A program made the position numbers and the translations under genes. Of a stretch of 64,000 nucleotides of DNA, positions 9,635-56,835 are shown piece after piece. The stretch is from contig NC_090283.1 of NCBI RefSeq assembly GCF_037392515.1, forward strand, positions 40,068,249-40,132,248, given 5' to 3'. The notes under the pieces were generated by a model. The model made no database searches, had not been told where the DNA came from, and saw nothing but the letters and a program-made list of their open reading frames with translations. Position 1 is the first letter of the stretch. Every line of letters starts with the position of its first letter. Source of the DNA: Haliotis asinina (taxonomy: Eukaryota > Mollusca > Gastropoda > Lepetellida > Haliotidae).

Positions 9635-10113
9635 GGTTACATTGTTTGCTTACATTTTCAACCAAAACGACGGGTTTGTGTTATATCTATTATATCAATC
9701 GAAGGAAATGACGACAGATTTATCCAAATCGGTCATAAATCATGAAAATTATTTTCTATGAAATGGACAATGGCATACCTATGAAACTTAAACACTGAGA
9801 AAGTATCGCACAAACGCGGCTATTCACATACCAATTTTTATGCATAACGACATCTTCTGGAAGTGGCCATAATATCGGCCAAATGTGTGCGCTCGCGCTA
9901 CTAATCGTTAGTCAAATGCAGACTACTGCGAGAAACAGGAAGAGAGAGGAAGAAAATGACATATTTGTCACACAGTCTTGTGTAGTAAATGTGGAAAACA
10001 ACGTTGAACTGATGATGGTGACTTTGAGTTTAGTTTTGGCGTACCAGTGGTCAGTAATGACATCGGTAAGGAACTTCACATTTCTGTTCCCAGATCAGCT
10101 AAGCATAAGAGTC

Positions 10114-10383
10114 CCGTGAAGGTCCGGGCTAGATTAAGCCTTCAGAACCCCATACTTGCCCGAAAAGGCGACTATGCTTGTCGTAAGAAACGACTAAAGG
10201 GGTTCGGGCGGTCAGGCTCGCTGACTTGATAAACACGTGTCATTGCTTCCCAATTGCGCAGATTTATGTTCCTTCTGTTGATCACTGGATTGTCTGGTCC
10301 AGGCTCGATTATTTGCAGACCACTGCCATATAGCTACAATATTGCTGGGTGCGACAGAAAACTCAACTCACTCACTCACTCAC
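10114..10383 (+). repeat. Repeat-B copy, near full length
   Basis: Begins 'ccgtgaaggtccgggctaga', contains 'ggcgactatgcttgtcgtaa', 'ttcccaattgcgcagat', 'gatcactggattgtctggtc', 'cgattatttgcagacc', and ends 'attgctgggtgcgacagaaa' followed by (ACTC)n. This is a good reference copy for the family in this orientation. Confidence 0.8.
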
Positions 10384-12261
10384 TAAGCATAAGAACGTCT
10401 GAACCGCTGCAGTGTTTTCAACTCGGATGAGGGGAGATGTCAAGATCCTTTGCAGAGAAGATGGTTTAGGCGGTAATAAAACAAACCACTCGCTACTGCT
10501 GCAACAAGACTGTATGAGGCAAGTGTTGATGAACAATTTAATTGCAAAGTGACGGATGAGCATACATTTTATGATATTAATCATCCTAAACTTAAATATT
10601 GAAATTATAATGAAAATCACTTTCACTAAATAGACTTAGCTTTGTAGCATATGTAATATTACACTCTACGCTCATTTGTGTGTGAAATGCAATTGTGTGT
10701 ATTGTGAATCCATAGTTTTGTTTCACATACCAAAGTTTATGAAAAAGCATGGTCATCACTAGTTTAAAACTTTTTTTTTCTGAGACGTATTTTAACTACT
10801 TCGGGTCATGTGGTTTGAGATATTTGTTATTTGGAAATATGAGTACTGTTTTTGACTTTTCTTTACATGTCACAAAAGAGGAGCCGTCCGGTCATATAAA
10901 CGTACTTCATGTGTGGAACTCGACATTGTCTGATGTCCTTACCTTGGAGCCAAAACGTTTAATGTGTGAAATGACAACCCTGGCAACTACGGATACAGAG
11001 ACACCTGCTGCAGATTCAGGTTGGATCAACTAAATCATCACTTTCATTATTTCTTAAAATGTCATTGGAAGAAAAAGAACCATTGTCTCTGCTTGACTTT
11101 CTTTATCCACAAAGACAAAATGGGATATTGTACAGAAAGTCTACAGACGTCATGATGTTAATCTGATCGAACGCTTACCTGAGTCAGTATTTACAACATG
11201 AACGCTATCTCTGTAGACACTAGGAGATACACGGCTAAATTCATATGTACGCTTTATTAGGCCCAGCTGTGTGCAAGATTACTTAAGACTAGAAAACCAT
11301 TAGTTCTGATTAAATTGATGAAACGTTGAGATATGTATTGCTTGGGTCGAAGAAAGGTAAGGGTACTGGTTTTCAAAAATAGGATGTCAACACTACCCAT
11401 GTCAAGTGTATTGTACGAAAACTGTTTATTTTCTATAAAAATGTAAACGTTGTAAATTAAATTTTATATAAAATCGCTAGCATAAGACATTACCAATCGA
11501 ACATAAAAGTGTGACAAAATGAACAGGGAGGTAAAGTGTGACTGAAAATGAAACATACAGCTTTATGGATTACAACTTCTTGATTATTAAATTGAGCGAC
11601 GTTTCGATGTAGATTCTTATATTGTTATCATTATCAAGCAAAAAGTGAATACAACCAAATAGTGAGATGCTTTGTATACATGGTATGTTGTGATAAACAG
11701 CGGATTAACAGAAACAACGGCAAGTAATAGAAAAAAACGACAAGCGGTACGTGATTGGAAAAGGCCAATCGGGAACAAAAACAAGAAATAGCACCAGTGA
11801 TGAAAAACTATGGTTGATTGTTTCAGTTTGACTCAGCAACTTTTTCACTTCATGTGAAAAGGTAAGATAGATTGCCCGTATTTCAGCGTTAAGCTAAGAC
11901 AAGTCTACAGGTATTCCCATTGGCGCCAGTGACTATGACGCCGATCCATCCTAGGTTGTTACAGTAACAGGTGTGTGACACCCCTTTGTCCCTAGCCAAC
12001 ACTGACTGGGTTGGTTCTGTCTCGGCGTTTGACCATGCAGAACGATTCAATGACCGGCTGCTCAATTCAGTGGCACCGCTGCCATAAAAGAAAGTACATA
12101 TGTTGATCTTTGTATGCCTATTTGACCATAAGCGAGGCCCAATGTGCCTGTGTCCAGCCGGAACGCGTGTCTACTACCAGGACCTGGACCCCCTCGGCCC
12201 TTCCGTGTGGCTTTGATTATCATGACATTGTGTAATTCACATCGTTGTGTTATCAAGTTGT
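10384..12261. other. Intergenic with a hammerhead-like relic
   Basis: No gene recognised. At 11594-11638 the word 'gagcgacgtttcgatgtag' recurs at 28454-28475 and resembles the CGAAAC half of hammerhead ribozymes known from Penelope-like elements, read on the minus strand. Confidence 0.35.
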
Positions 12262-12443
12262 CATTCAGGTAGGGTACCTTCGGGTATCTTAATGGTTAAA
12301 ACGTTCATTCCTCACGCCGGAGACCAGGGTTCGATTTCCCACATGGGTACAATATGTGAAGTCCATTTCTGGTGCTTCCCGTCGTGATATTGTTAGACTA
12401 TTGCTAAAAGTGGCGTGAAACAATACTCACTCACTAACTTACT
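12262..12443 (+). repeat. SINE-A copy, well preserved
   Basis: Shows the tRNA-like head ('atcttaatggttaaaacgtt'), the B-box GGGTTCGATTTCCC near 12328, 'cacatgggtacaatatgtga', 'gtcgtgatattgttagac', 'attgctaaaagtggcgtgaa' and an ACTCACTCACT tail. Confidence 0.8.
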
Positions 12444-13649
12444 TACCTAGGTAGTTTCTTTTAAATATGGACGAGAATCCTGGCACGTAATCGAGCATAA
12501 TCTTGTTTACAAACTGTGTCTCGACTTTGTTCTTCATTCAGTTCACAATAAAGACTAGTTCTAACCTGACACATGCGCTTGATCCAGGTGAAGCGAGGAC
12601 CCACGTGTGTCTCAGCATCACTATTCTAGATCTGTTCTTTAACCAGTCACAAAGTCATGAATATGTATTCAATCATCATATTCATAACATGAATCTGGGA
12701 GTCAGTTCTTTAAATCTATATGGACTTTAATATGCAGACCACTAAACATATATCCAGAAAGTTTGGCGCTAGTTTGTTTTCAAGTTTATATCCTAGGCTT
12801 CCTACTTACAGTTTTATTTAAGTTTGTGTGTTATTTAAATACCCGTGTCATACACAGTTTAGCACAGCTATCTCCCTTGTGCCTTGTGGTTATTCCAAAA
12901 CTTGTCCACTCGGCACCTGTGTTTAACACGACAGCATGCCCTAATAGCCTTCTGTCGGGTCAACAACAAGCATCTCCAGACTCAGAAATAAACTTGGATC
13001 TATTTTACCCGTGTATACAATTTTTCACATCCCGAAATATGTCATGCATTTGTGTTTGAGCGTTAGCAGCCAGTTTGAGTGGTCATTATATATAAGGTTA
13101 CGGCACCTGGAGCCGGTGGCGCAGTGATGGTCTACAGCTTGTTGTTCAAGAATGATACTGGCAAATGTTCTGGGTTGCCGGTGTGAACGTCTCTGTTTAT
13201 CCACTGGGCAATGCCTTGTGGTCCGGCATGTTTTTGCCATGACCGTGCACTTCTCTGTATGATGCATAAAGACGCTTCACAAGCTGTGCGTATCAAGAGA
13301 CCCTGTGGAACTCACAAGTAGACACGCGTTATGTGGAAGAAGACATAAACAGTCTGAAATAGAAACATAAACTCGGCGCAACGTGCCTGCCCTTTCAAAG
13401 CTGACATGCGACAAGGACTACAGCAAGAAAAACGTCTATCATGCAGCATCTCACAGGTGTCAACAGGTAGATACTGACTTATATATAAACATAGTGATTT
13501 GTCATACAAACACTTGTCCACTCAATGTGAGAATAAATCTGGATGTTTGGGACGTTTAACTAAATGCTGAAGAATTCCAGCGGAATTTTGTAGTTGACTT
13601 ATGTACATTTGGTTTCCTGGCACGTACATACACGTGACATATATGGATG
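12444..13649. other. Intergenic, no gene seen
   Basis: Only random short frames; no repeat body or splice-supported exon recognised. Confidence 0.45.
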
Positions 13650-13978
13650 AAACTTGGTGAGGTAATTACAGTTGACGCATTCACATGGTAAGGTAATTAC
13701 AGGTGACGCATTCACATGGTGAGGTATTTTACAGGGACGCATTCACTTGGTGATGCATTTTATAGGTGCCGTATTCACTTGGTGAAGTATTTTACAGGTG
13801 GCGTATTCACTTAGTGAGGTAATCACAGGTGATATACCCACTTGGTATGATAATTACAGGTGATGTATTCACCTGGTGAGCTGATTGTAGGTGACATATT
13901 CACTTGTTAAAGTAATTGCAGGTGACATATTCACTTGGTGAGGTATTTTACAAGTGACATAAACTTGGTGACTTTCAC
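13650..13978. repeat. About 31-bp minisatellite, degenerate
   Basis: About ten to eleven diverged copies of 'ttggtgaggtaattacaggt' + 'gacatattcac', with frequent substitutions and one-base length changes, so this is an old array. Confidence 0.85.
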
Positions 13979-16150
13979 AGAGGGTGTTCCTCTCTGATTA
14001 CAGATCATGTACACGTCCGCTCACAATGACAAAGTTCTGGTTTCATTTAGCCAGGAACATCGTGTGATGGCTGTTCCAGTGTCCACTCTCGTTATACCAC
14101 TGCACTACTAACAAAACAACGTGTAACCGCTATGCCCATCCTGCTGACTACTTAGTGAGGTGTATGGAATGTACACTTGTGTCCGTGATTACAATGCAAT
14201 CAACAGTAAACAATGGTCAGCCCTTGGACTGTGCCCCAGAAACCACGAGCTGGTTAGTCCTTGTCAGATCCTGACACGGCATGCCTGGGGCAGAGATTCC
14301 TTCAACCACGTGGGAGGATTATTGGACATTTATAGTGAATTAACCTATCCGAACTCCCACACCTCGCCCCGTCATCCATGACGACTTGCAGTAGGTGGGA
14401 GATTTACAGTGGGTGAAAATGTCCTTCGTACACATACCAAATGGTCTTTGAACCAAAATGGTTTCAGGTCTAACTTTCGAAAAGAGCGAAATGGAATATG
14501 GTGAGAGTTCGAAACTTGTCTTGAATGTTTGGCAGAAGTGACTAACGGGATCGGAGGTCAGGTTCTTTGACCTTGATGTTCTATGTCAACTTATCCTGCA
14601 TTGATATGTGCTCGTGATGTCAGTCACCGATTGTGTGCTGCTCAAACTGCTGCCAGTCAACATACGTTGAGCACTAAATGAGGTTAAACAATGTATTCAT
14701 AAGTACGACACATCAAAATGATATGCTGAATTTTAGACCTTCAATGGATGCTTTGTAAGAATAGCAGTAATGGATATCGTTTCGAGGCTACTTAAATAGT
14801 ATCTTTCCAAGATAACAGCACAGCAAACTATGGCATGAATGTTGGCAATTCCATGATGCCAAAGTGCTGGTACTATTGGTTTCGGAGGCTGCACCATGGA
14901 ACGACGCCATGGATGCATCTTCAGCAGATATTAAAGAGATTGCATAAGATGCAGTGGGCTGGTGTTCCTCTGTTTCCAAAGAATGTGATTCATGTTGCTG
15001 CTCCGTGACAAAAACACAGGCCAACACAGATTCTCGGCACCAGAATTGCTCGTTAATCAACCCTCTGTTGCAGGTAAGAACCCAAGGACAGTCGGATCTC
15101 GTTACATCTCGGAACCATTCGTTACGTCGCGAGAACCCAGGGATCACTGAATTTAAACCTATAACTTCCGGTGAGGAAACACACGTAGTTAAGCTAGTTG
15201 GTTTGACCAGGTCAAGATGACCTAGTTGCGGTACTCTCAGACTCCAGTTTCACAATTTATGTAAACTTTAATGTTGTCAAATATCCAATGCTACCGACAC
15301 AACGCCGTTTAGACTAGATTATGTAATTTACGTAGCCAGGGGACTGGAATGGTTGTATACGGTCCAAGACGGGAACCTTGTTTATGGATCATACACAGAT
15401 TCGACAAGTGACCCTCTAGTTGTGACTGTACAATCAACCCAATCAGTGTACACGACACGATCGGCTCTGTGTGACGTCATTCGTGACCAACTGTTATCCC
15501 GCTACCCGCACCCCTTTGGAAGGATTTCATGTTGACGCATGAACACCAGAACTTCTTCATGCGAGAACAGCTACTTTTCTGTTTTCTTTCACCGGCAATA
15601 CACATGAAGGACGAAGTTGGCTACTTTTACAAATTTCGTACAATTTCGTATTTGTGTACATGACGGTTCTCATGTTTTCTGTTTTCACCGACGAGTTCGT
15701 TGGCATGCTTTCATGATTTTACGTGCGCTTTCCGACATGTACATGTTTCAAAACCTATCCAATTTGCAGTTCGTATTTAGAAATATACATCTGAAAATAT
15801 AAGGTGAACAATTGGCTATTATTACGTTGGAGTATGTTTTCAACAAGTCGCCCTCGTCACCATTGAAACCGGTTAAAATCTCTAATAAGCAGAGCGACAT
15901 TGTGACGAGAGTGTGAACTCTTTCCAGAAGGTGAGAGGATGGGTGAGTTAGCGGGTGAACTGGTGGGTAGATGGGCGAGAGAGTGAATGAGTGAGTTAAT
16001 TACAACTTCATGTAGACCGGAAGTGATGAGGATGCCAAGTACATGTGACGTCCTGAAGGAAGAGTATGGTAGTTGCGCCATCCTTACCTCAGAGGATTCT
16101 GAAATGGGCAAGGGACACAAACCGGTGTCCGAACGAAGTAATCACATGAC
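13979..16150. other. Gene-poor stretch downstream of the peptide gene
   Basis: No exon supported. The longest frame (minus strand, 14788-15147) has no recognisable domain. A fragment resembling repeat-B lies near 14525-14650. The stretch ends just beyond the poly(A) signal of the minus-strand peptide gene. Confidence 0.4.
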
Positions 16151-16169
16151 ATTGCGGACAGTTACTGCG

Positions 16170-16175
16170 TTTATT
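16170..16175 (-). terminator. Poly(A) signal of the EF-hand/cationic peptide gene
   Basis: AATAAA on the minus strand, 28 bases past the TAG stop of the peptide gene. Its position fits a short 3' UTR. Confidence 0.6.
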
Positions 16176-16202
16176 TGCTCAGGTAAGTGTGAAGTGACGT
16201 CA

Positions 16203-18688
16203 CTACTCGTTGGAGTAGAAGTCGTCAACGTCTTCGTCCTCTTCAGCAGCACGTCTCAGATCCGGATCTGACAGCAGAGAGTGGATAGGTGCATAACACC
16301 CAATACATAACAAAGGAGACATTGATCTGACAGCGGAGAGTGGATAGGTACATAACACCCAATACATAACAAAGGAGACATTCATACGTATTTCGAGTGA
16401 GTAAGTTTGCAGGGAGGTTTCGTTGGTCACAGTGCCTGTTATCCTTAACCATGTTATCCTTGATTATCCTTGATAGCGTGTATCCGCTTTGCTCAGTGAT
16501 TTCAATTACTGGTTTGTCTGGCCAAAACTTGACTTTTTTTAGGATCAATATTGACTGTGGTGTTAAAGGAACATTCACTGGAATATCAACTCTGATATGC
16601 TTATAGCTGGGCTACCTGCATCTATAGTCATCAGGTCTCGCATGGTCCTGGTGAACTCATCGACGCTCACTTCAGAATTGCCTGCCAATATTACAACATT
16701 ACAAGATTTCAATATAAGATTAGGACACAATAATACAATGAAATACTACAATCAAATATAATAATACGATGAACAAAATGTATTAATACAGTAGAATAAC
16801 AGAATACAATAATGGAATAATAGATTACTTAACAATAATGCAATAAAATACTACAAGTTTGCAGGTTGCATTACACAGGAGAACCCCTGCAGTCCCAGTC
16901 TAGAGGGACCGTTCTGTAACTGACCGTTCATTTGATGTAGACTGAGGACACGTATAAGCGTGGCAAACAGACGTGTTACACAATTTGTGGTCAATAACAA
17001 GCGTTTCCAGTCACGCCCAGGGCAGATGTGTTATTAACAAGGTGCCCATTGACGTCCAGGGTAGATGTGTTACCAACAGGGTGCTAAGTGACGTTCAGGG
17101 TAGATGTGTTATCAAGAGGGTGCGCATGCCCAGTCACGTCCAGGGGAGATGTGTTACTAGCAGGGTGACCAGTCACGTCCTGAGTCGATGTGTTGCCAAC
17201 AAGGTGACCAGTAACGTCCAGGGAAGATGGGTTACTAGCAGGGTGACCAGTCACGTCCAGGGTAGATGTGTTGCCAGCTGGGTGACCAGTAACGTCCAGG
17301 GTACATGTGTTGCCAGCAGGGTGACCAGTCACGTCCAGGGTACATGTGTTGCCAGCACGGTGACCAGTAACGTCCAGGATAGATATGTTGCCAGCACGGT
17401 GACCAGTCACGTCCAGGGTAGATGTGTTACTAGTAGGGTGACCAGTCACGTTCGGAGTAGATGTGTTGCCAGCAGGGTGACCAGTCACGTCCAGGGTAGA
17501 TGTGTTACTAGCATGCTGACCAGTCACTTCCAGGGTAGATGTGTTGCCAGCAGGGTGAGTAGTCACGTCCAGGGTAGATGTGTTACTAGCAGTCACGTCC
17601 TGAGTTGATGTGTTACTAGCAAGGTGCACATGCTCAGTCAAGTCCATAGAATATGTGTTACCAGCAGGGTGACCAGTGACGTCCAGAGTAGATGTGATAC
17701 TAGCAGGGTGCCCAGTTACGTCCAGGGTCACATCCCGGGTAGATATGTTACTAGCATCATGGCCAGTCAAGTCCGGGCTAAATGTGTTATGAGCATGTCG
17801 ATCAGACAAGTAACATTCGTGTCTGACAATAAAAACAAGCCGAAAACTTACCGTCTTCATCCACAAGAGGAAGAAAGTCCTTCACTGCGCGCGCATCAAA
17901 AACTTTCTCGGCCTCCGATTGGTCAATTATGCCATCCTTATTGATGTCAAGGTCGTTGGCATCACGTCCGTATAAGTAGTGACCTTCAACGAACAGAGAA
18001 CTGTTTAGCAGTATTACAGCAATTTCCCACCTGGTACACCAGAAGGATATTCGGAAATTCTAGTAGACTCGTTTGGAAAAACGATGTGCGACAGCTAACA
18101 AAACACAAAAGTAAGACTCAAACCTTACGGAGACAAAACCGGACCACTGTTAATCTTTCAAAATGCTCGTAAAATAACTTAGAAGTTCGTTTCAGAAAGC
18201 AGGAGGGGTGGCGGCAATGAGTATAGGGGTGGGGAAGTGGGTATGAATACGACAGTAGTGAGTCACCAAAAACATTAACCTCGCTGCTGCAGGGTTCATG
18301 CTTGACTATACCATACATACTGCACCACACTACAAACTACGCCCCTCCCCCACACACCACACACAGACACACACACACATGCACACACACGCGCACACAT
18401 GCACACACACAGGCACACACATTACACACACACGCACACACACACACCACAGCATCCCCCTACACACACACGCGCGCACACAAACGTCAATCTTCTTCTA
18501 AGGAGGCCATGATATCCATCCCTGCCTGGCATTACAGTTTTACCTCGTATGTGCTTGTATACTTTGTACACTCTGTACACTCTTCTGGCAATTCTCCATG
18601 CCCGTCTAATCCACCGTCGACGCCCCCACCCCTCGGCGTCTGGCAGCAGGATCAGTCCCAGGAGTAGGAACACTAGCAGCAGACGCAT
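16203..18688 (-). CDS. Cationic peptide precursor with EF-hand acidic tail
   Basis: Candidate secreted antimicrobial peptide precursor of 113 aa. Coding exons in minus order are 18688-18544, 17983-17852 and 16267-16203; all introns are GT-AG with phase 1 joins. Residues 1-20 are a signal peptide (MRLLLVFLLL start, DAEG end). Residues 21-48 (WGRRRWIRRAW to YKVYKHIR) hold ten Arg, two Lys, three Trp and repeated V-Y-R/K steps, as in membrane-active helices. Exon 2 gives G-H-Y-L-Y-G-R, then DINKDGIIDQSE, a canonical EF-hand loop (D1, N3, D5, G6, I8, D9, E12). The last exon is acidic (A-A-E-E-D-E-D-V-D-D) and ends S-N-E. The layout recalls tunicate styelin/clavanin precursors, where an anionic C-terminal part offsets a cationic peptide. 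I know no family that pairs such a peptide with an EF-hand. The gene model is strong; killing activity and cleavage sites are inference. Confidence 0.78.
16265..16382. repeat. 59-bp tandem duplication over a splice acceptor
   Basis: 16265-16323 is repeated at 16324-16382 with few changes. The unit includes the acceptor used by the last coding exon of the peptide gene (minus strand 'ctgctgtcag'). The second unit keeps an intact acceptor ('ccgctgtcag') further upstream on the transcript. Confidence 0.85.
16985..17780. repeat. 39-bp minisatellite inside an intron
   Basis: About 20 copies of a 39-bp unit built on 'gtccagggtagatgtgtt' and 'gccagcagggtgaccagtcac'. It lies in the intron between coding exons 2 and 3 of the minus-strand peptide gene. 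Because 39 is a multiple of three, long frames stay open on both strands (13-residue periodic peptides); these are artefacts of the period, not genes. Confidence 0.92.
18340..18483. repeat. (CA)n-rich microsatellite in an intron
   Basis: Interrupted CA/CACG/CATG repeats. The tract lies in the intron just after the first coding exon of the peptide gene, so frames running into it from that exon read intron sequence. Confidence 0.92.
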
Positions 18689-18904
18689 GATGATGTTGCA
18701 AAAGGTGTTGACGTTACCGACGTAATATACTCTTCAAGAAACAAAAAAAAATAACTATACATAAGAAATATTTTGAACTTTAGGAAAATGTTTGACACAA
18801 ACCAATCCATGCAGAATCCCAACATGTAGGGGTGTGGTTGCCGACGACATAACGTTTGAAAAAAGAAACGTTGAACAAAAGTGTAACGTTACACTCAAGT
18901 CAAC

Positions 18905-19065
18905 CTAATGTTGCTACCGCCGCTCAGGGTCGCTACATCCAGTTGAGACATCTTCGTACAAACACCACGGCCGCATCATCAACAACAATCCAAATCCTGG
19001 ATTGCACCGAATCTCCACCCAGAGCGAAATTGGCTATGGGACCTTGTGAAAGAGAACCGGTTCAA
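18905..19065 (+). mobile_element. Tc1-like transposase fragment in intron 1
   Basis: Encodes N-V-A-T-A-A-Q-G-R-Y-I-Q-L-R-H-L-R-T-N, the same Tc1 linker region as at 7.8 kb, and after a frame change P-G-L-H-R-I-S-T-Q. It sits in the first intron of the minus-strand peptide gene, in the opposite orientation. Confidence 0.6.
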
Positions 19066-19329
19066 CGTAACGATGTTACCTTCATCTAAGTCAACGGTTG
19101 ATCTTTGAAGCATGACAATTCTCGTCCTCACTTTGCATGTGTTTGTACAGGACTTTGACCAGCAAAACAATGTTCAGGTGTCACCTTCACATTCTTAGCC
19201 ACCCGATTTGAACATTAACCGATCTCATAGTGAGAACAGAATATTTTTACGCCAGTGTGGGGCCATTCCCCACCCCCTCCCACTTTGTGTTTTAACAACA
19301 TCTGAAGAAGAAGAAGAATGATAATGATG

Positions 19330-19500
19330 CACTTGTCTATTTCTGTCTTGATTCTACGACACGCTGGTGGTTCCTTGTGGTCGTTGAGCCTGAAAACTCT
19401 TCGACGAATGACTTCCTTGTCAAAGTTATCGAACTTCTGTTTTCTTCGTGGTTTAACTTTTGAGACGATCCCTACATGCTTTGTTTTGTTTACAGGTGAG
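19330..19500 (-). mobile_element. Possible DDE transposase N-terminal fragment
   Basis: Minus-strand translation contains K-P-R-R-K-Q-K-F-D-N-F-D-K-E-V-I-R-R-R-V, resembling the FDxxVIRR helix at the N terminus of a DDE transposase family common in aquatic invertebrates. The fragment is about 50 residues long, lies in intron 1 of the peptide gene and ends at a CTT/TCA simple repeat. The match is from memory and tentative. Confidence 0.35.
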
Positions 19501-20212
19501 CAGACTTTGTGACATGGAACTGAAAGTGCTCGACTAGTGCGGTACAAGATTTCACCCCGAACTTCGTCTAACTAAAGAAGTTGAACACATGACAAGTTTC
19601 AGTGTCCTGACTCATTGTGACTGTGCACTTGACAATCAACTCCGTAGATATGCAAGATGATAACCTTGTGATAACACTACAAGTGTGAAATATACTTTAA
19701 ATCTACATTTACTCATATGATTCTGTTTGTAAACATTAATGACAGTATCTTAAACATCTATAAATGAACTACCAGCCAAGGCGAGACGTACGTCCCGGTA
19801 AAGACATAGACTGAATACTGCTATATACACAGAGGAGCTACCTATTCCTCTCAACTAAATTTATCATATCACTGGTTTTGAAAACATCTTTAAAACTTTG
19901 AAAACAGAAACGGTAAGTGTTTAGAAAATAGCCAACACATTTTAAACCCTGCAAGCATTTCACGTGACTCTCAGCAACGTTTCTATTGATCTAATCTTGT
20001 TGTATTTACCCAACCACAGATTACTACTCACAAACTATTGCAGTCAGTTGTGATGGCATAAACGGACTCATGTCAGTGACCAAGCGCACATGAGATTCTG
20101 GAAACTGCATAAGAACCCCACAAATGAATATACGCGTTTGAGAAAGATCAAACGCAAGTAAAGTAATATGATTGGCTGATTGACAGATATCCTTGCTGCG
20201 ATCATGTGCAAA

Positions 20213-20251
20213 TGTGAGTGAGTGAGTGAGTGAGTGAGTGAGTGAGTGAGT
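20213..20251. repeat. (GTGA)n microsatellite
   Basis: About ten perfect GTGA units. The reverse complement is the (ACTC)n tail word, so it may be the end of a lost SINE. Confidence 0.9.
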
Positions 20252-20694
20252 CCACAGTATTCCAGCTCTATCGCAGTGCACGATGCCGACTCGTGATGTT
20301 TATCTCTTCAGGAAAAAGAACGAGCATACATGGAGCACTGTCACTGTTAGAGAGTTAAAGAGGGTGATCGGGGAGCCAAACTCGGGAATACATGGCTATC
20401 TGGGATGCCCAAAGGATCCATAAAATATAATTCTGTTAAATCTCCAACCGAATTATTTCCCACCCCGTCCTCCCAGTCCGCCCTGCAATGCTGAAGCCAT
20501 ACATTGGGCAAGTGGAGACGTCCTCAGGTTCTGGTCAGAATCTCCCATCTGCCTGGGACTCCTTTTTAGTTTGTTCCAATCCAGATTCTATATATTCAGA
20601 GACTAAACAGTAGTCTAGCCAGTACCTGGCACATGTGTATTGTCAGTACATTGTGAAGAAGAACGGAACCGAGGTATCAACAAGACGGACTTAC

Positions 20695-20740
20695 CTGTAG
20701 AGTTGTAACTGAAATTCTGTCTCCTGTGGATTGCAGCAGC
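20695..20740 (-). promoter_or_regulatory. Noncoding first exon of the peptide gene
   Basis: Minus-strand sequence beginning about 25-30 bases past the TATA box and ending at a strong donor, CTCTACAG|GTAAGT, with the last exon base at 20695. It would join an acceptor at 18731/18732 (T-rich, TTGAAG), 43 bases before the ATG. The transcription start is estimated, not observed. Confidence 0.5.
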
Positions 20741-20766
20741 GGTGATGTAGCTGTCCTGGTAGGCCC

Positions 20767-20774
20767 TATTTATA
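20767..20774 (-). promoter_or_regulatory. TATA box of the peptide gene
   Basis: TATAAATA on the minus strand followed by GGGCC, about 70 bases upstream of a consensus splice donor. The spacing fits a short noncoding first exon. Confidence 0.6.
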
Positions 20775-21014
20775 CACAGTTATTGCTGAGTGAGCAGACT
20801 GAGATCACTGACAGGTGACATATCCTTGTAACATACGTTGTAAACAGGTACCTACCCGTCAATATGTTCTTGATGTACCAAACAGATAAGGGCGATCGAT
20901 TCTACATTATACACGTGAACCTGATGTGAAATTCAGACGCTATGGAAATTGAGACTGGCTTCACTGTGGGTTATAGCATTGCAGAGAGGCTTAGGCAGTG
21001 GAGAAATAATGTGG

Positions 21015-21180
21015 TTCAGGGACTACGAGTGAGTGAGTTAGTTATACCCCGCCTTTTAGCAAAATATGACGGGGGACGCCAGAAATGGGCTTCACATACA
21101 TCGGGAATCTAACGGGGGTCTTTGGAGTGACGGTCAAAGGCTTTGACCACAATGCTACCCTGCCGAGCCTCAGGAGCCTC
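21015..21180 (-). repeat. SINE-A copy (diverged)
   Basis: Reverse orientation: starts with a GAGTGAGT tail word, then 'ccttttagcaaaatatgacg', 'gaaatgggcttcacata' and the head near 21150-21175. A decayed repeat-B-like piece follows at about 21250-21400. Confidence 0.6.
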
Positions 21181-21504
21181 AGAGGTGTTGGTAACTGAGG
21201 TCTAGCAGTGAATGAGTGAGGGTGTGTGAATGGGTGACTTATTGTTTGTTATGTAACGTCCAACAATAGTGATTGAGTGACCTTAATTTTACGCCAAACT
21301 GAACAACAATCCAGCCATATGAAGGTGGTTTGATAGTTATCGAATCCAGACCAGTCAAGATGTAATCCTGTGACTGGCATCATCGGTATTAGCGAACCTG
21401 AGGACAATGGTTTCTTGTGTAAAGTACGTATTAATGAGCATGGTATAATACCACTTTGTGTATGTCATCTCTAATACCGCTTCATCATCATGAAATTTGG
21501 GTCG

Positions 21505-21678
21505 GGGTCCAGGGGCACTGGGGTATTCTGGTGGTTAACACTTTCGCTCGTCACGAGGAAATCCCGGGTTAGAATCCCGACATAATTGCAATGTGTGAAG
21601 CTCATTTTCCGGGCCCCCGCCTTGATATTGCAGAAATGTTGCTAAAATTGAACTCACTCACTCACTCACTCACTCAAA
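21505..21678 (+). repeat. SINE-A copy
   Basis: Contains 'ttctggtggttaacactttc', 'cgctcgtcacgaggaaatcc', 'caatgtgtgaagctcatttt', 'ttgatattgcagaaatgttg' and five ACTC units at the end. Confidence 0.75.
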
Positions 21679-21734
21679 TGGCTCCAGTCCATGTGCACGG
21701 GTGTATTTCTATTGACTGGTACATGGTCACTTTC

Positions 21735-22034
21735 ACTAGCGAGATGTAGACTATGCCACGTGTGTTGCAGCAAACCTGGAGTTGTATAGAGTCAGTCTTA
21801 CTAGTCAGGTGTAGACTATGCCACGTGTGTTGCAGCAAACCTGGAGTTGTATATAGTCAGTCTTACTAGTCAGGTGTAGACAATGCCACGTGTGTTGCAG
21901 CAAACCTGGAGTTGTATAGAGTCAGTCTTACTAGTCAGGTGTAGACTATGCCACGTGTGTTGCAGCAAACCTGGAGTTGTATAGAGTCAGTCTTTCTAGT
22001 CAGTTGTAGACTATGCCACGTGTGTTGCAGCAAA
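21735..22034. repeat. 65-bp minisatellite
   Basis: Between four and five copies of a 65-bp unit ('gtcagtcttactagtcaggt', 'gtagactatgccacgtgtgt', 'tgcagcaaacctggagttgt'), nearly identical to each other, so a young array. It abuts the repeat-B copy that follows. Confidence 0.9.
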
Positions 22035-22066
22035 GAAGTTGTCTGTCGGAATATCATTCAAACAAA

Positions 22067-22295
22067 CAGTGAGTGAGAGAATGAGTTTAGTGCCACACTC
22101 ATCAATATTGCAGCTATATGGCGACGGTCTGTAAATAGTCGAGTCTGGACCAGACAACCCAGTGATCAACAGCATGAGCATCTGTCTACGAATTTGGGAA
22201 CCGATGACATGAGTCTGCCAAGTCAGCGAGCCTAATCGCCTTTTACAAATAGCATGGGTCACTGAAGGTCCATTCTACCCCGGATCTTCGCGGAT
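22067..22295 (-). repeat. Repeat-B copy
   Basis: Reverse orientation from the GTGAGTGAG end through 'caatattgcagctatatgg', 'cagtgatcaacagcatgag', 'gggaaccgatgacatgagtc' to 'taccccggatcttcgcgg'. Confidence 0.75.
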
Positions 22296-23084
22296 GTATT
22301 CACACAAACAAACCAGTATGCTGAAGATACTTCGCCACCGAGTCGTCGCAGACGTCGCTCGTTGCTGCATAGAGCTGCATCCCTTTGGCCTGCCACAATC
22401 CGGTAGTTGTGGGTTTGTCCGAGGTATGCACGCAGTATGCGTAATACCCGCAGGAGAGGTCAGCCGTGGAAATTTTACCGTCCGTTGGAGCTGCCGCCTT
22501 TAGTACCTGCATTACTTCTCTCTGAAGACTCACACAGTTTACCGACAGCTGTATCAGACCCAGACTCACTCACTCACGCACTCACACGAAACTTCAGGTT
22601 CCGGGCACCATTGAAGCGAAGCTGTTATTGAAAAAAGTGTTACTTTATACTCCTAGTTTACAACTGGGCAGTCTGTGCAGCGCTAAATGTTGGCACGGTG
22701 TGGATTTCACAGCTAACAGGACATATCAGCATCAAAACATTAGTTGAGGTGTGACAGAACCACATCCTGATTGCGTGACACACCTGTCCATGTCAACAGG
22801 TGTGATCCACTACCCGCGCGTCCACAGCAGCATGGCAGGGGTTACATGCTTACATAATATAAAACGCAATAGATATATTATGAAAATACAGCGAAAGCAT
22901 GTGAAGTCAAGTCATGTAAACTTCATGGGATTATCGTATTAACATCACGAACACAAACCTTCACTCAAAAAGAAAGTGAGACTCAATCTTCATAAACCTT
23001 TCATTTCTTTCCTTATGAAGATAAAGTTTAGAAACAATATTCCGTAACCGTTTGTCTTATTGCTTGAGGATCCAGTCCGCATTC
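22296..23084. other. Intergenic, no gene seen
   Basis: Three overlapping short frames on both strands show no domain or splice support. A CACTCACTCACG word at about 22570 is the only repeat-like item. Confidence 0.4.
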
Positions 23085-23990
23085 AGTGACTAATGTACAC
23101 AGCATAGCTCTGTGTACAGTGACTAATGTACACAAATTATCTATGTATACAGTGACTAATGTACACATCATCTATGTATACAGTGACTAATGTACACACA
23201 GTAATTATGCATACATTGACTAATGTACACAGAGTAGGTCTGTATACAGTGACTAATGCACACACAATACTTATATATACAGTGACTAATGTACACAGAA
23301 TACTTATATGTACAGTGACTAATGTACACAGAGTAGTTCTGTATACAGTGACATGTGTACACACAGTATCTATGTATACAGTGACAAATAAACGCAGAGT
23401 AGTTCTGTATACAGTGACTAATGTACACTGAATAGTTCTGTATACAGTGACAAATGTACACACAGTATCTATGTATACGGTGACAAATGTACACTGAGTA
23501 GTGATGTATACAGTGACGAATGTACGCACACCATCTGTATACAGTGACGAATGTACGCACAGCACCTCTGTATACAGTAACTAACGTACACACAGTATCT
23601 CTGTATCCAGTGAGTAATGTACACACAGTATCTCTGTATACAGTGACAAATGTACAGACAGTATTTTTGTATACAGTAACTAATATACACACAGTATCTT
23701 TGTATACAGTGACTAATGCACACACAGAATCTTTTGTATACAGTGACTAATGTACACACATTAGCTCTATATAGAGTATCTAATGTACGCAGAGTATCTC
23801 TGTATACAGTGACTGGTGTACACACAGTATCTCTGTTTACAGTGACTAATGTACACACAGTAGCTCTGCATAAGTGACTAATGTACACACAGTATCTCTG
23901 TATAGAGTGACTAATGTACATACATTATCTCTGTGTAGAGTGACTAATGTACACACAGTGGCTCTGTATATATTGACTAACACGCATAGT
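23085..23990. repeat. 33-bp minisatellite, about 27 copies
   Basis: Unit 'gtatctctgtatacagtgac' + 'taatgtacacaca'. Most units differ by a few substitutions. The 33-bp period keeps frames open on both strands (11-residue periods), which explains the long apparent reading frames. Confidence 0.93.
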
Positions 23991-24308
23991 ACTCACAGTA
24001 CCATGCACATTGAACTGGCAGTAAAGTTAGAAAGTGTTTTAGAAAACACTGCCAACAATACAGGAGTGCATATTGCACAGCACAGTGCGATTGTGTCTCC
24101 ATCACTGTTCAAATGACAGGTTTAATATAAAAAGTTGTCGTTGCGTTACGAGATGCAGCTGATGCGCATCGCTAGTGGATAACGTGCTGGTTCAGATTTC
24201 ACACGATCGAGATAAATGTCGGCAGGTGTACAGCAAGCTGAAGAGAGCTGAAATGTAACAGGATACTCGTCCTAATGCGTTTTTTCTGGTTAAAAAACGC
24301 CCGAAACA

Positions 24309-24438
24309 AACGAACGAACGAACGAACGAACGAACGAACGAACGAACGAACGAACGAACGACTGACTGACTGACTGACTGACTGACTGACTGACTGACTG
24401 ACTGAATGAATGAATGAATGAATGAATGAATGAATGAA
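24309..24438. repeat. Three tetranucleotide arrays in series
   Basis: (CGAA)n to about 24360, (ACTG)n from 24361 to about 24404, then (AATG)n to 24437, with no spacer between them. Confidence 0.95.
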
Positions 24439-24568
24439 AAGAAATAAACACCTTCAGGGTAGCCAGTAGCCAATTTATGTCTGAGTGTGCTTTGACTGTT
24501 GTTAAGCACGAGTCCGATATGGAAGCTTCGATGGTTCGCTGGAATGCTCAAGAATCAGTGACTGTGTG

Positions 24569-24716
24569 TATATATAGGGCTGGTTGTGCTGACCACACAA
24601 TAACGGAGTAATACAGGAGCTGTGTCATCATTCGGCCTCTCTACATCTGTCTTCCTCTTCTTCGAGAAAGTTCTCTGTGAAAGATTTAATAGAACTGGTT
24701 CTGTGACAAGACTTTG
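24569..24716 (+). promoter_or_regulatory. Candidate TATA promoter and noncoding first exon
   Basis: TATATATA at 24569-24576 followed by GGGC, a pyrimidine-rich leader without an ATG frame, and a donor CTTTG|GTGAGT after 24716. The arrangement mirrors the TATA-GGGC plus short leader plus donor of the peptide gene on the other strand 3.8 kb away. No partner coding exon was found downstream. Confidence 0.3.
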
Positions 24717-24983
24717 GTGAGTTGATATTATATTTGTGACCCGTTACTTTAGATTTAACTCACCTGCATTGTACTGGAAACCTCTTTTGTAAATCATTGC
24801 ATCTTGCTCTTTGTTCAATACATAATATTGAATATTTCAGACCTGTAGGATTTATATTTTTGCTGTTTCTGAGGGGATTTTTTTTATACCTTATATGACG
24901 GCAAACCGTAAGACAATACATAAGCCTTTGTTATATCCACATATCCGAGACCCGTAAGTTAGGTTACTACCAATACCAATTCC

Positions 24984-24985
<2 letters not shown>

Positions 24986-25029
<44 letters not shown>

Positions 25030-27970: not shown

Positions 27971-28453
27971 CCAATTCCGCATCGCCCCGTCCCTACACTA
28001 CCCTCCACGCCACGCCACGCATCGTCCCGCACCTCACCCTGGTCAGCAAACCTACAACAGGCACCTCCCAACGGTTGATGGACGTATATTGATTTGAAGT
28101 TACTGTTGACATTAGACATGATACGTAGAACTGCTGTGATCCATGGCTGCACCCCCTGCTATTCATATGTGACATTTCGATGTATCAGATATCATTCATT
28201 GATAAGTGTTAGAGATATTCGACACTCAAGGAGTCCATCTGATCAAGAGACCGTGGATGGGCGAACCCAACAATGAAGAAAGCACACACTTTACACTTTC
28301 CATGTTTTACCACCGTCCATGATTCCGCTGGCACAGGTACATTGTTGGTGAAAATGGAAACACCTGACTAATTGTTTGATCGGCATTCTAGAAGTTGGTG
28401 ACTCAAAATTAAAACAAACAATATTATGGATTGCAAATTCTTATTTATTGTAT

Positions 28454-28475
28454 AAAGCGACGTTTCGACGTAGGT
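28454..28475 (-). repeat. Hammerhead-like CGAAACGTCGC relic
   Basis: Minus strand reads CTACGTCGAAACGTCGCTTT, the same word as near 11.6 kb. It may be a remnant of a Penelope-type retroelement end. Too little remains to fold. Confidence 0.25.
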
Positions 28476-28589
28476 TCTGGCATCTTGGGGTTGGGGATGA
28501 TCAGAGCCACTAGTGGTTTAAGGCAATCTGACTGCAAGTCGCTACATCGATCGAATCCTGCTACTTCAGCTCCTCTCACTTTTGACAGC

Positions 28590-28785
28590 CAGAGGGAGCT
28601 GCTTCAAAAGGACAACGTTCGATCCCACACAGCTCGTGTAATAGGTGACTCTCTCGCCAATGAAAACATCTTTGTCCTTCCCTGGCCTTCCAGATCGCCT
28701 GATCTGAAGCCGATCGAGCATCTGTGGGACGAACTTGATCGACGCGTCAGTAAACGTCGTCGTCATCATCATCATCATCATCATC

Positions 28786-28816
<31 letters not shown>

Positions 28817-28945
28817 GACACTTGCAGAACTTGCCATCGCGTTGCAACAGGAATGGCGAAGAATTACTCAAACAGAAATCCGACGAGTTCATGGATCCCA
28901 TACCAAGGCGGTTTCGAGCAAGGGTGGTGTCACCATGTACTGACA
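28590..28945 (+). mobile_element. Tc1-like transposase C-terminal fragment with His run
   Basis: Encodes the catalytic end of a Tc1 transposase: Q-K-D-N-V-R-S-H-T-A-R with the second catalytic Asp, W-P-S-R-S-P-D-L-K-P-I-E-H-L-W-D-E-L with the third catalytic residue (Glu), then Q-T-L-A-E-L and a G-G-V-T-M-Y end before the stop. A CAT repeat (28761-28816) inserts a histidine run between the RRVSKRR stretch and Q-T-L. The frame is still open through it. The N-terminal half is absent. Confidence 0.85.
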
Positions 28946-43223: not shown

Positions 43224-43869
43224 GTCCTAAACTAAAAGTGGACGCTGCTCGAGCCAACACATACGTGTGCCAAGTAAGTACAGATGGTCAACTCGTTCCC
43301 CACCACGTAACACAGACAAAGCAGCATGTTACAGGAATATCGGGGTACATGTGCCTCCATCCACATCCCCGTTCCTCCATCCCCCAACACACCAAAGTAC
43401 TTGGAGACACACTCTAGGGTGGGTGTGGTGGGTGGAGGGTTAGGGTATTTTGTCCTTGAGATGGGTGTAGTTGAGGAGAGCCAGGTGGACAGTGGACAGC
43501 AAGGCACCTGGTGTGTCAGTGTACAGAGCTGTGGCCTGCACAGGGAGTGTCTCTGTACCAGGGTGTGGCAGCCGGGGAAGGAGGGGAAGTGTTACAACAA
43601 CACAATGTCTGACACACTTGTTAGACAGGCCACCCTCCACTGTGGCGTTTTACTGGATGTGGTGAGGAGGAGACTCGCTTTCATCGACCTAAAGAGGCAG
43701 GTTGTTTTAGCCAAGATGGATGTAGAGTGGAGTGAGCCTCTTCTGTCAATTTTTGGTGTTGGGAAGCCACGTGTCTTTGCAGTCAACATGAAGGTGATAA
43801 GTGGAGCCGATATCACCCTGACTGACATAAGAAGTCGCTCATCCTTGACGCTTTGAATTAGACAATAAA
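43224..43869 (+). pseudogene. Decayed duplicate of the TRIM B30.2 exon
   Basis: Matches the last exon of the TRIM gene (56117-56835) through its length: D-A-A-R-A-N-T, G-T-C-A-S, the S-R-V-G-V-V stretch, K-E-G-K-C-Y-N-N-T-M-S-D-T-L, L-A-F-I-D-L, V-I-S-G-A-D-I-T, and a downstream AATAAA (43864). The acceptor that is AG in the intact copy reads AA here. The PRY-like start and the SPRY part are in different frames, and a small deletion near 43828 changes the C terminus. With no RBCC exon upstream it is best read as a pseudogene. An unannotated alternative acceptor could in theory rescue part of it. Confidence 0.75.
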
Positions 43870-50300: not shown

Positions 50301-50755
50301 GATGGACTGAATAATGTTGGATATAAAGATGAAGTCAATAAAGTTACCAAGTAGATAAAAAAATGCATTTGGGGCATTCAGATCATGCAAATAATGTCTG
50401 CTGATAGATAATGCAATGGTGGCATAAAGAGATGGTGTAAATGGTTTATACTGGAATAAAGCCATATGTGTTGGAGGTTCAGATAGAGTAAAATTGTGTA
50501 TACTGTGATGTGAACAGGACAGTAAATAACGCCTGGTTAAACACTGTATACTCTATACTGTAGCGGTATCTCCTTGATTAACAAGACATTTCAATGGGAC
50601 TTTAATAATCATGGCTATAATATATTGTTGCTATACTTTAAAAGTTCATTAAGTGCTTCGGTGCAATACACGTGTTTTCTTTGAATTAATGTGAGATTCA
50701 TGTGAAGTGCAATCGATTGCATAGAGAGATCGATATTATCTGTTTCAGAAGTAGA

Positions 50756-53700
50756 ATGGACGCCTTCCCCAAGTGTTCTGTCTGTCACCAAAAGTTTACC
50801 CTGAAAGGCCCCGCACCCTACCTACTGCCCTGTCTACACGCCGTGTGTGAGACATGTGTGACATCTGGAGCTGGTGGTGTCATATCATGCTCTACATGTC
50901 ACAGGAAGGTCAACCTCACAAACACAACACTCCTGAAAGATGTAGTGAGACAGAAGGAAATATACTACCTGACTGTCAAACATTGCCCTACAGAGCTTCT
51001 CTGTACAAATGATGACGGAAACCAGGCTGTGTGTTGGTGTCCAGAGTGTGAAGAGTTTCTCTGTGAATACTGTCAGAACATGCACAATCGTTTCAAAGCT
51101 ACCAGAATACATGTTGTTGAAACACTTACGGATACCACACCGGGAAGCATGCATACTAAACCAGTTTGCAAACTTCACAGCCCTTATCCTCTTGAAGTTT
51201 TTGACAAGAACTGCAATATTTTAATCTGTTACAAATGCAGCAGACTTGGTGACCATGCCGGGCACGACGTTGGTGATGTAGATGTGGCTGCTGATGCTGC
51301 TAAAAGACGGATAGAGCAACATGAGAAGAGCGTGTCTACACATCATACTCGTCATCAAACATATCTGAAGAGCATCAACAAGGCCGTGAATGACACAAAG
51401 AAGACAAGCAGTGCTCTGAAGGATACCATCCACCACACGTTCCACTCTCTGAGGACACAACTCGATCAAAGAGAGAAGGAGCTGATCATTGATCTGGAGA
51501 ATCAGACAAGACAGGAACTGTCAAATCTCCACACCGAGCAAGTTACCTCTGAAGGTGAGAGTGAGCGTTGCAAGTGGACCTCAGACTATATCAAGACCGT
51601 ACTCGGATATGCTTCAAAGTCGGACTTTCTGACACTGGAGAGTTCAATACAGGACGCAACAATGACGCACCTCAGATCAGTTCCACTGAAGATGAACGAA
51701 TCACCTGCAACCGGTTTCAACACAAAGGGCCTTGATAAACTTAAATCCGATATATCCACATTTGGGTATGTCAATGCATATGGCTCAGTAGCAACAGGTA
51801 CTTGCTTACACTGTATATCAACATATATATATCAAATCTTTCTTACTGAAGCTTTGTCAAGAGTATATCAGGAGTAAACAGTTTGTGCCCTTTTTGTGGA
51901 AAATTACTTTATGTAACTTTGAGATGGTATGATCATTTTTGATCTATAATTTTCATACAACATCACACTGAACCGTTAACTATTTGATTTGTAATGCTTT
52001 GACAGACAAAGGAACACAGACAGTTGGCTGTCAGCTAGCTGATGCTGAGAGCATACACCAGCATGTAAGTACCTCCTAATTTGCGAAACACATAGTCGGC
52101 CTAGCTATATTCTTGATTTCCAATGTTTGAAAACCTTCTAATCAATTTTGAAGAAATCGTTAACAAAAGCCATATACAAAATTTGCCATCTGTGGGTAAT
52201 GTGTTTACCGAGATTTTAGTCAACATTCTAATATGTTTCTTGCATATTGTGTTCTCTGACGTGTGTGTTGCACTTTTTGCTGATCATGTGGTTTTGGGGG
52301 GGACATACCAAGATACAAAGAGTCATACAAAATGGGGATCGAGAAGCTGGAAGATAGCAAAACCATTTTGCTTGGGGTTGACAAATAATATGTTGAGAAA
52401 TAAACATTGTATCATATTCTAGGTGAAGCCGACTATTTCCCACACTCGTATTATTGTTCCCAAGGTATGTAATTACAACAATTTATGATGAACTCTGGAC
52501 ATATGTGCCTTGTTCACTGTACGGTAAACTGACGCAAGTGTGTCTGATTTTTAGTAAACCTCTTGTTCTTTAAAACATGAATTGTGTCATTAATGTGTTT
52601 CCTTTTATTACAAGCTGGAATACTTGGAGGTTCCTAACGATCCAACACCACTACCAGGGTTTGGTAAGAATATCTTTGACAGCATTTAAATACTTTAGTA
52701 TGTAAACTCTGTCTGACCTGTTCCACCACTTCAGAAGATAAAAGTGGACAGAAAATGTGTGTTGGTAGATGTTGTGGTATGTTCAGTACAATTTGTACCC
52801 CGATCTTTAAACCAAGTATAATTCTTAAAGGCACACTGTCACACGACACCTTTCTAAAACAAATGCTATGCATTTTCTCAATAAAACTTTCGATCCGCCC
52901 TCAAGGAAGCTACCGAATATGTATTCGCTCCATAATTAAGTATTTATATAACAATGTTAAATTGTACGGAGAAATTAAACATTCTGTGTAATTTATGGCA
53001 AGTGTTCTCTGTTCGGAAGCTGTTTACTTTGAAGTTTCAATGATCGATTTAAGGAAGGTCGCAAGGGAGTCTTTAAGTCTTTAAGTCTTTAATTCCAAAA
53101 TGTCGGACATTGTGCCTTTGACACTAAATCTAGTTTTAACAGTTAAGTATGGAAAAGCACGTCTTGTTTCTATTCTAAGCGATTCTGCGACTTGTAGCGA
53201 AAATGTTTGCTGCAGATGCTGGGTGTGAAAGCTACAAACGTGAAACGGGGACGATGACGCCGGTGGCTCTGCAGTGTGAGTACAAATGATAAATGTCTTC
53301 AGCACATGATGAGTGAGTGAGGGAGTATGGTTTTGCTTGAAGCAATATTCCATTAATATCACGGTGGGGAAACACAAGAAACTGGCTTCACACACTGTAC
53401 CCATTTGGGAAATCGAACCCGGTCTTCGGCGTGACAAGCGGACGCTTTACCACGAGGTCAATACTTGATGAAGCGTTGTTGTAAGCATTATTGGTTAGCG
53501 ATTGGCGAGAGTGACTGCTGTATAAACACTGGCTGTTGCACACCTGATGTCGTGCACGAGATGAAATGCCCTGTATACGGGACGACGTACCGGGCGTACT
53601 GTCAACGGAATGCTTAACCGGACAGGCTGTACAGGCGATGTGACGCTGCTGCTGGATCCCTTCCACACTGTACTTAGAGTTTGGTGTTTCTCTGAAGCAT

Positions 53701-56700: not shown

Positions 56701-56835
56701 TGGAGGGAGTCTCTTCTTCCCGTGTTTAGTGTAGGGCGGCCAGGTCGCTACACAGTCAACATAAAGGTGATAAGTGGAGCAGATATCACTATGACTGACA
56801 CCAAGAAGTCACTTATCTATGACGCCTTGAATTAG
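50756..56835 (+). CDS. TRIM-family protein with B30.2 domain, 656 aa
   Basis: Probable RING-type E3 ubiquitin ligase. Coding exons: 50756-51797, 52006-52064, 52423-52464, 52615-52663, 53216-53275, 56117-56835; all GT-AG, total 1971 bases with stop, in frame. The ATG lies 7 bases after an acceptor (TGTTTCAG), so a noncoding exon precedes it. RING ligands are C7, C10, C26, H28, C31, C34, C45, C48. A B-box 1-like Cys/His cluster spans about 83-119 and B-box 2 about 138-170 (C138, H141, D150, C153, C158, C161, H167, H170). Residues 175-330 are charged and heptad-like, fitting the coiled coil. Four small exons form a linker. The last exon (from residue 418) has a PRY-like start (LQLDAARANT) and SPRY signatures (GVVLDVGRGRLAFIDLD, LLPVFSVG). 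Pro-rich and Gly/Val-rich inserts lie between, so this B30.2 is atypical. In animals such proteins often act in immune signalling; target unknown. Confidence 0.82.
53311..53466 (-). repeat. SINE-A copy in the TRIM gene
   Basis: Reverse orientation from GAGTGAGTGAGG, 'caatattccattaatatcac', 'gggaaatcgaacccggtctt' to the head near 53460. It lies in the intron after exon 5 and is absent from the upstream duplicate. Confidence 0.75.
54995..55130 (+). repeat. Repeat-B copy, partial
   Basis: Contains 'cagctcgctgacttgtttga', 'ttgcgcagatcgatgcttat' and 'gtctggtccaggctcgatca', in the last intron of the TRIM gene. Confidence 0.65.

Follow-up and report, generated by a model that had tools for sequence, protein, structure and literature searches.

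A gene on the minus strand of the window, the whole 64 kb stretch of DNA analysed here, probably encodes a secreted precursor of 135 residues, in which a cationic linear peptide is followed by an anionic pro-part carrying paired EF-hands, and is freed from it by proteolysis. Four exons form one open frame in this splice reading. The exon joins, the separation of charge between the two parts, the helical amphipathicity of the first and the two EF loops of the second are supported by the sequence. The reading made earlier from the sequence only, that in a single precursor, with an N-terminus resembling a signal peptide, a cationic amphipathic segment is combined with an acidic EF-hand part able to neutralise its charge, is upheld. 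The gene model on which it was based turned out to be incomplete. The product is a candidate antimicrobial peptide from an abalone.

Structure of the gene and of its product

The four coding exons, and a duplication found next to the last of them, are the following:

18544..18688, minus strand: coding exon 1, signal-peptide-like residues 1-20 and cationic amphipathic segment 21-48
17852..17983, minus strand: coding exon 2, HYLYGRD..., EF-hand loop 1 DINKDGIIDQSE (residues 61-72), the next helix and the start of EF-hand loop 2
16616..16681, minus strand: coding exon 3, 66 nt, phase 1-1, AG/GT borders, absent from the earlier 113-residue model
16203..16267, minus strand: coding exon 4, acidic C-terminus DPDLRRAAEEDEDVDDFYSNE and stop codon
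16265..16382, minus strand: 59-bp tandem duplication, 2 copies, 96% matches (TRF), duplicating the splice acceptor of exon 4

All three introns have GT...AG ends, and each is in phase 1. Exon 1 ends with the first base of codon 49 at a GT donor, and exon 2 is bordered by an AG acceptor and a GTAAGT donor. Joined in phase 1, the segments 18688-18544 (145 nt), 17983-17852 (132 nt) and 16267-16203 (65 nt) give a product of 113 residues. This is the three-exon model proposed earlier; its coordinates, GT/AG ends, phase 1 joins and length are all confirmed, but exon 16681-16616 had been missed. Exon 3 supplies NSEVSVDEF directly after the ...VDEDG at which exon 2 ends, completing EF-hand loop 2, DEDGNSEVSVDE (residues 90-101), and adds the helix exiting from this loop. 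The single EF-hand of the shorter model has to be abandoned in favour of the two loops of the full one. The other features read from the sequence at the outset are all present: the N-terminus resembles a signal peptide, residues 21-48 include twelve Arg/Lys and three Trp, the loop DINKDGIIDQSE follows, and the C-terminus is acidic. An AATAAA signal starts at 16175, 3' of the stop codon. No TATA[AT]A motif was found by scanning 15900-19600, and the bases 5' of the ATG, ...ACATCATC, lack an AG.

Charge is sharply partitioned along the chain. Residues 21-49 contain 10 Arg, 2 Lys and 3 Trp, with a net charge of +12 and a computed pI of 12.00; the other 86 residues (50-135) have a net charge of -18, and no cysteine is found in the whole product. 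When residues 21-135 were shuffled, a 29-residue stretch of +12 was obtained in none of 5000 trials, the maximum being +11.

The cationic part seems to form an amphipathic alpha-helix and no strand. With the best window and angle (90-110 degrees) sought in the shuffles as well, its helical hydrophobic moment was matched by 11, 0 and 0 of 1500 shuffles at 11, 18 and 24 residues, respectively. The strand moment was matched by 1424, 1341 and 1333 of 1500 shuffles at the same lengths. The V-Y-R/K steps pointed out earlier do occur in the segment, but give no hint of a strand, and reading them as such was rejected because the strand moment is ordinary in shuffles and the helical moment rare. At a fixed angle of 100 degrees, residues 24-41 are exceptional (0.0008 of 5000 shuffles), residues 21-38 (0.048) and 34-47 (0.073) are intermediate, and the entire 28-residue segment is not exceptional (0.088). 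AlphaFold2, run on the exon 1 product as a single sequence, predicted helices at residues 3-17 and 23-47 (mean pLDDT 73.5). A hydrophobic stripe (3-4 spacing, 7 positions) is also found in the cationic part, and was equalled by 97 of 3000 shuffles. The net charge of +12, the moment and the predicted helix 23-47 together make up the cationic amphipathic helix typical of alpha-helical antimicrobial peptides, the whole segment being unexceptional at 100 degrees. The two PDB matches of the segment (E 2.8 and 8.7) were regarded as fortuitous.

The pro-part includes two 12-residue loops, DINKDGIIDQSE from residue 61 and DEDGNSEVSVDE from residue 90, both canonical by a PROSITE-like EF-loop pattern. 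Searching the six frames of the window with this pattern returned one match, corresponding to loop 1; loop 2 becomes visible only once spliced. The loops start 29 residues apart. In calmodulin the distance is 36 residues, and the pair may therefore not fold as a standard lobe. Residues 50-135 match the Pfam families EF-hand_1 (E=5.5e-05, 22.9 bits against a gathering cut-off of 25.4), EF-hand_6 (E=3.7e-04, 20.4 bits against 25) and, as a pair, EF-hand_7 (17.6 bits against 30), and weakly the SPARC Ca2+-binding region (E=0.056, below cut-off). No Pfam score exceeds its gathering cut-off, and given also the spacing of 29 residues, the fold of the pair is likely, not secured. The AlphaFold2 model of the exon 2 piece alone was poor (mean pLDDT 59.7). 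Calmodulins were the top matches in a sequence search of the PDB. The best match (E=0.0027) is weak, spans residues 81-128 and thus only one loop, and its best single stretch has an i-Evalue of 0.58. In NCBIfam, residues 59-106 gave one weak match (14.8 bits, cut-off 120) to a family of calcium-binding bacterial effectors, which was dismissed as generic EF-hand resemblance.

Comparison with known precursors

Precursors in which a cationic peptide is followed by an anionic pro-part include the tunicate styelins and clavanins, neither of which is known to contain an EF-hand.

The initial assumption that no EF-hand pro-part was known is wrong, since the C-terminal extension of mussel mytimycin has an EF-hand, as described in PMC8004829 and PMC3210125; the design is thus not new as such. 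According to PMC8004829, the mytimycin precursor is 152 residues long, and is made of a signal peptide of 23 residues, a peptide of 54 residues with 12 cysteines (10-14 in mytimycins at large) and an extension of 75 residues, which is anionic, bears the EF-hand and follows a dibasic site. In the same account the role of the EF-hand is called unknown, and mytimycins are reported from mytilid mussels, one Perumytilus sequence being devoid of the EF-hand region. In PMC3210125, an EF-hand-like domain is described, and two public gene sequences feature 3 exons and 2 introns.

The abalone product (135 residues against 152) shares with mytimycin the order of signal peptide, cationic peptide and anionic EF-hand extension, the latter having here two EF loops and a net charge of -18 over residues 50-135. 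It differs in having no cysteines in its 135 residues, no dibasic boundary between peptide and extension, and four coding exons in place of the three of the two public mytimycin genes. Lacking both cysteines and the dibasic junction, it was set aside as a mytimycin.

The peptide itself resembles myticalins, described in PMC5577615 and PMC12294457 as linear, Arg-rich cationic peptides with a pI above 11 and an anionic extension, the share of Arg exceeding 10% in PMC5577615. Like these and the modiocalins, among which Gly-Arg amidation ends are frequent (PMC5577615, PMC12294457), the abalone peptide is linear and Arg-rich (10 Arg in 29 residues, no cysteine), has a pI above 11 (12.00) and precedes an anionic C-terminal extension. 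The second exon of myticalin genes, as reported in PMC5577615, encodes the signal peptide, the whole peptide, a dibasic site and a few residues of the extension, and has an intron in phase 1 on its 3' side. Here also one exon encodes signal peptide and peptide, and the next intron, at codon 49, is in phase 1. The same source places an intron immediately 5' of the myticalin ATG, and in nearly all myticalins a low-complexity extension after a Lys-Arg site. None of these was found in the abalone gene: no intron immediately precedes the ATG, there is no Lys-Arg site, and two EF loops replace the low-complexity extension. For these three reasons assignment to myticalins was also set aside.

The gene appears to pair a myticalin-like front with a mytimycin-like back, and to belong, as far as tested, to neither family. 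No precursor of such design from abalone or other gastropods is named in the titles and abstract openings of the openly licensed papers among the matches listed; similarly, passages of PMC3039611, PMC5549309, PMC7653742, PMC11359391, PMC11767717, PMC8290317, PMC8945852 and PMC11491315 mention none outside mussels. What is known is the EF-hand pro-part, from mussel mytimycin; what looks new is the different, linear and helical peptide in front of it. If a linear helical peptide too comes with an EF-hand pro-part, the module would seem to accompany cationic peptides generally, and not one cysteine-rich fold.

Proposed processing of the precursor and alternative roles

We infer that the gene is transcribed and its product secreted, that the acidic part binds Ca2+ and masks the peptide until cleavage, and that the peptide acts as an antimicrobial. 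The putative signal peptide would direct the chain to the secretory route. The peptide, spanning about residues 21-48 and possibly reaching residue 53, would be an Arg/Trp-rich amphipathic alpha-helix able to disrupt microbial membranes. The pro-part would be a folded, Ca2+-loaded acidic module, covering the positive charge of the peptide within the secretory pathway and keeping it in this way soluble and harmless, until proteolysis frees the peptide after storage or secretion. Cleavage at Gly54-Arg55 could leave residues 21-53 as the peptide, its terminal Tyr amidated. Gly54-Arg55 could be a monobasic amidation-type site by analogy with the Gly-Arg ends described for myticalins in PMC5577615. 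Dibasic pairs are found only at 23, 24, 28, 35 and 119, and none in the 135-residue sequence lies at the junction of peptide and pro-part. This is the main point against a freed peptide, the release of which is presumed.

Canonical EF-hands bind Ca2+ at micromolar levels, and Ca2+ ranges from high micromolar to millimolar in the secretory pathway and in marine haemolymph. The EF sites would be filled both before and after secretion, which makes Ca2+ doubtful as release signal and proteolysis the likelier switch; gating of release by Ca2+ has little support. Most likely the acidic folded pro-part would mask charge, and proteolysis would then free a membrane-active helix.

In a special form of this scheme, which we regard as conceivable but rather unlikely, the Ca2+-loaded EF pair would grip the cationic helix of the same chain in the manner of calmodulin, and let it go when Ca2+ falls or the chain is cut; both the grip and the letting go are held with the same reserve. 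Basic amphipathic helices, which the cationic segment resembles, bind membranes and calmodulin alike. According to PMC6162328, the antibacterial melittin serves as a model calmodulin target, and a basic amphipathic nature is common to calmodulin-binding segments and antimicrobial peptides. The two EF loops of the pro-part adjoin the helix, and calmodulins are the top PDB sequence matches (best E=0.0027). Residues 27-40 moreover fit a 1-5-8-14 hydrophobic pattern. Such patterns, however, are frequent in shuffles (1-5-8-14 in 404 of 3000, 1-8-14 in 1216, 1-14 in 2537 and 1-10 in 2707), and the 1-5-10 and IQ patterns had no match. The combination of two EF loops and a basic amphipathic helix recalls a calmodulin lobe and its target in kind only: here all is in one chain with a signal-like start, the loops are nearer each other than in calmodulin, and the match to calmodulin is weak and limited to one loop. 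Finally, Ca2+ is probably saturating in each compartment met by the protein.

Extending this scheme, the precursor would carry its own calmodulin, a two-EF-hand lobe clamping a membrane-killing helix of the same chain, and the mytimycin EF-hand would be either a relative or a parallel of it; this is a shade less probable still. If true, molluscs in general would use EF-hand pro-parts as a module to cage antimicrobial peptides of unrelated kinds. With an EF-hand module attached to a linear helical peptide, both masking and clamping could be examined directly by means of a short synthetic peptide and the 86-residue domain.

The absence of a dibasic site at the junction also fits a secreted EF-hand protein that is never cleaved, and whose basic helix serves as anchor to membranes or to an anionic matrix (mucus or shell polysaccharide, for instance). 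The SPARC Ca2+-binding region, which the pro-part matches weakly (E=0.056, below cut-off), points in the same direction. The order of the parts, with signal and cationic segment first and the acidic extension last, is instead the layout of mussel antimicrobial precursors, and Gly54-Arg55 offers a possible monobasic amidation-type site. An uncleaved protein is rated improbable, to the same degree as the in-chain clamp, and a precursor cleaved by proteolysis is preferred.

Chance expectation and surroundings of the gene

Candidate exons were defined as open, frame-keeping segments of 30-240 nt with AG/GT borders. In the 1584-nt interval from exon 2 to the last exon, 52 were found, and one of them, exon 3, completes an EF loop. 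In 400 dinucleotide shuffles a loose EF match was obtained 9 times, and a strict match never. At E<=1, the 135-residue form matches four Pfam families, three of EF-hands and the SPARC Ca2+-binding region, the best being EF-hand_1 (E=2.3e-04), and all below the curated cut-offs; at the same threshold the 113-residue form has no Pfam match.

The EF-hand scores under the curated cut-offs would suit a chance or decayed assembly of exons, the protein not being made. This is very improbable in view of three phase 1 joins that are all open, of an EF-completing exon strictly matched in 0 of 400 shuffles, and of a helical moment reached by 0 of 1500 shuffles at both 18 and 24 residues. Moreover, the only match to the EF loop pattern in the window falls in this same gene, and an AATAAA lies 3' of the stop codon.

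Skipping of exon 3 would preserve the frame, as the exon measures 66 nt and has equal phases, so that a 113-residue splice variant is possible; that this form, with one full EF-hand, predominates is the least probable reading of all, because the second loop is lost and no Pfam match at E<=1 is left.

The duplication at exon 4 provides an acceptor-like CTGTCAG at both 16327 and 16268. If the exon started from the upstream copy, at 16326, translation would give a non-acidic, cysteine-containing end, DQCLLCYVLGVMHLSTLCCQIRI, in place of the acidic tail. Repeated DNA is found also in two introns. Intron 1 includes a CA/GT simple repeat at 18351-18451, and intron 2 hosts a 39-bp minisatellite of about 18 copies (17007-17728), overlapped by long ORFs on both strands.

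No convincing second copy of the gene was found within the 64 kb window, where tblastn matches correspond to the four exons and to weak others; the best of the latter aligns residues 19-49 with 56393-56485 (E=0.036). Rfam matches were absent from 10000-25000. In viral contigs, none of 108 pattern stretches was confirmed by tblastn.

Eight of the 81 ORFs of the window were compared to Pfam. At E<=0.01, RING/B-box and DDE transposase families were matched, and also, below cut-off, SPRY and TNF families, in four ORFs altogether; this suits an animal genome. A 391-aa ORF at 50702-51877 encodes a TRIM-like RING and B-box protein (B-box E=2.2e-07). Two ORFs, 43326-43856 and 56341-56835, are alike by eye and may be the last exons of duplicated TRIM-like genes; SPRY is matched weakly by the second (E=0.003, below cut-off) and not by the first. 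The ORF at 62068-62331 has a TNF-like domain (E=2e-04, 21.8 bits against a cut-off of 23). The ORF at 28431-28943, which includes a TCA/His repeat at 28763-28816, matches the DDE superfamily (E=3.8e-08) and is perhaps a transposase fragment.
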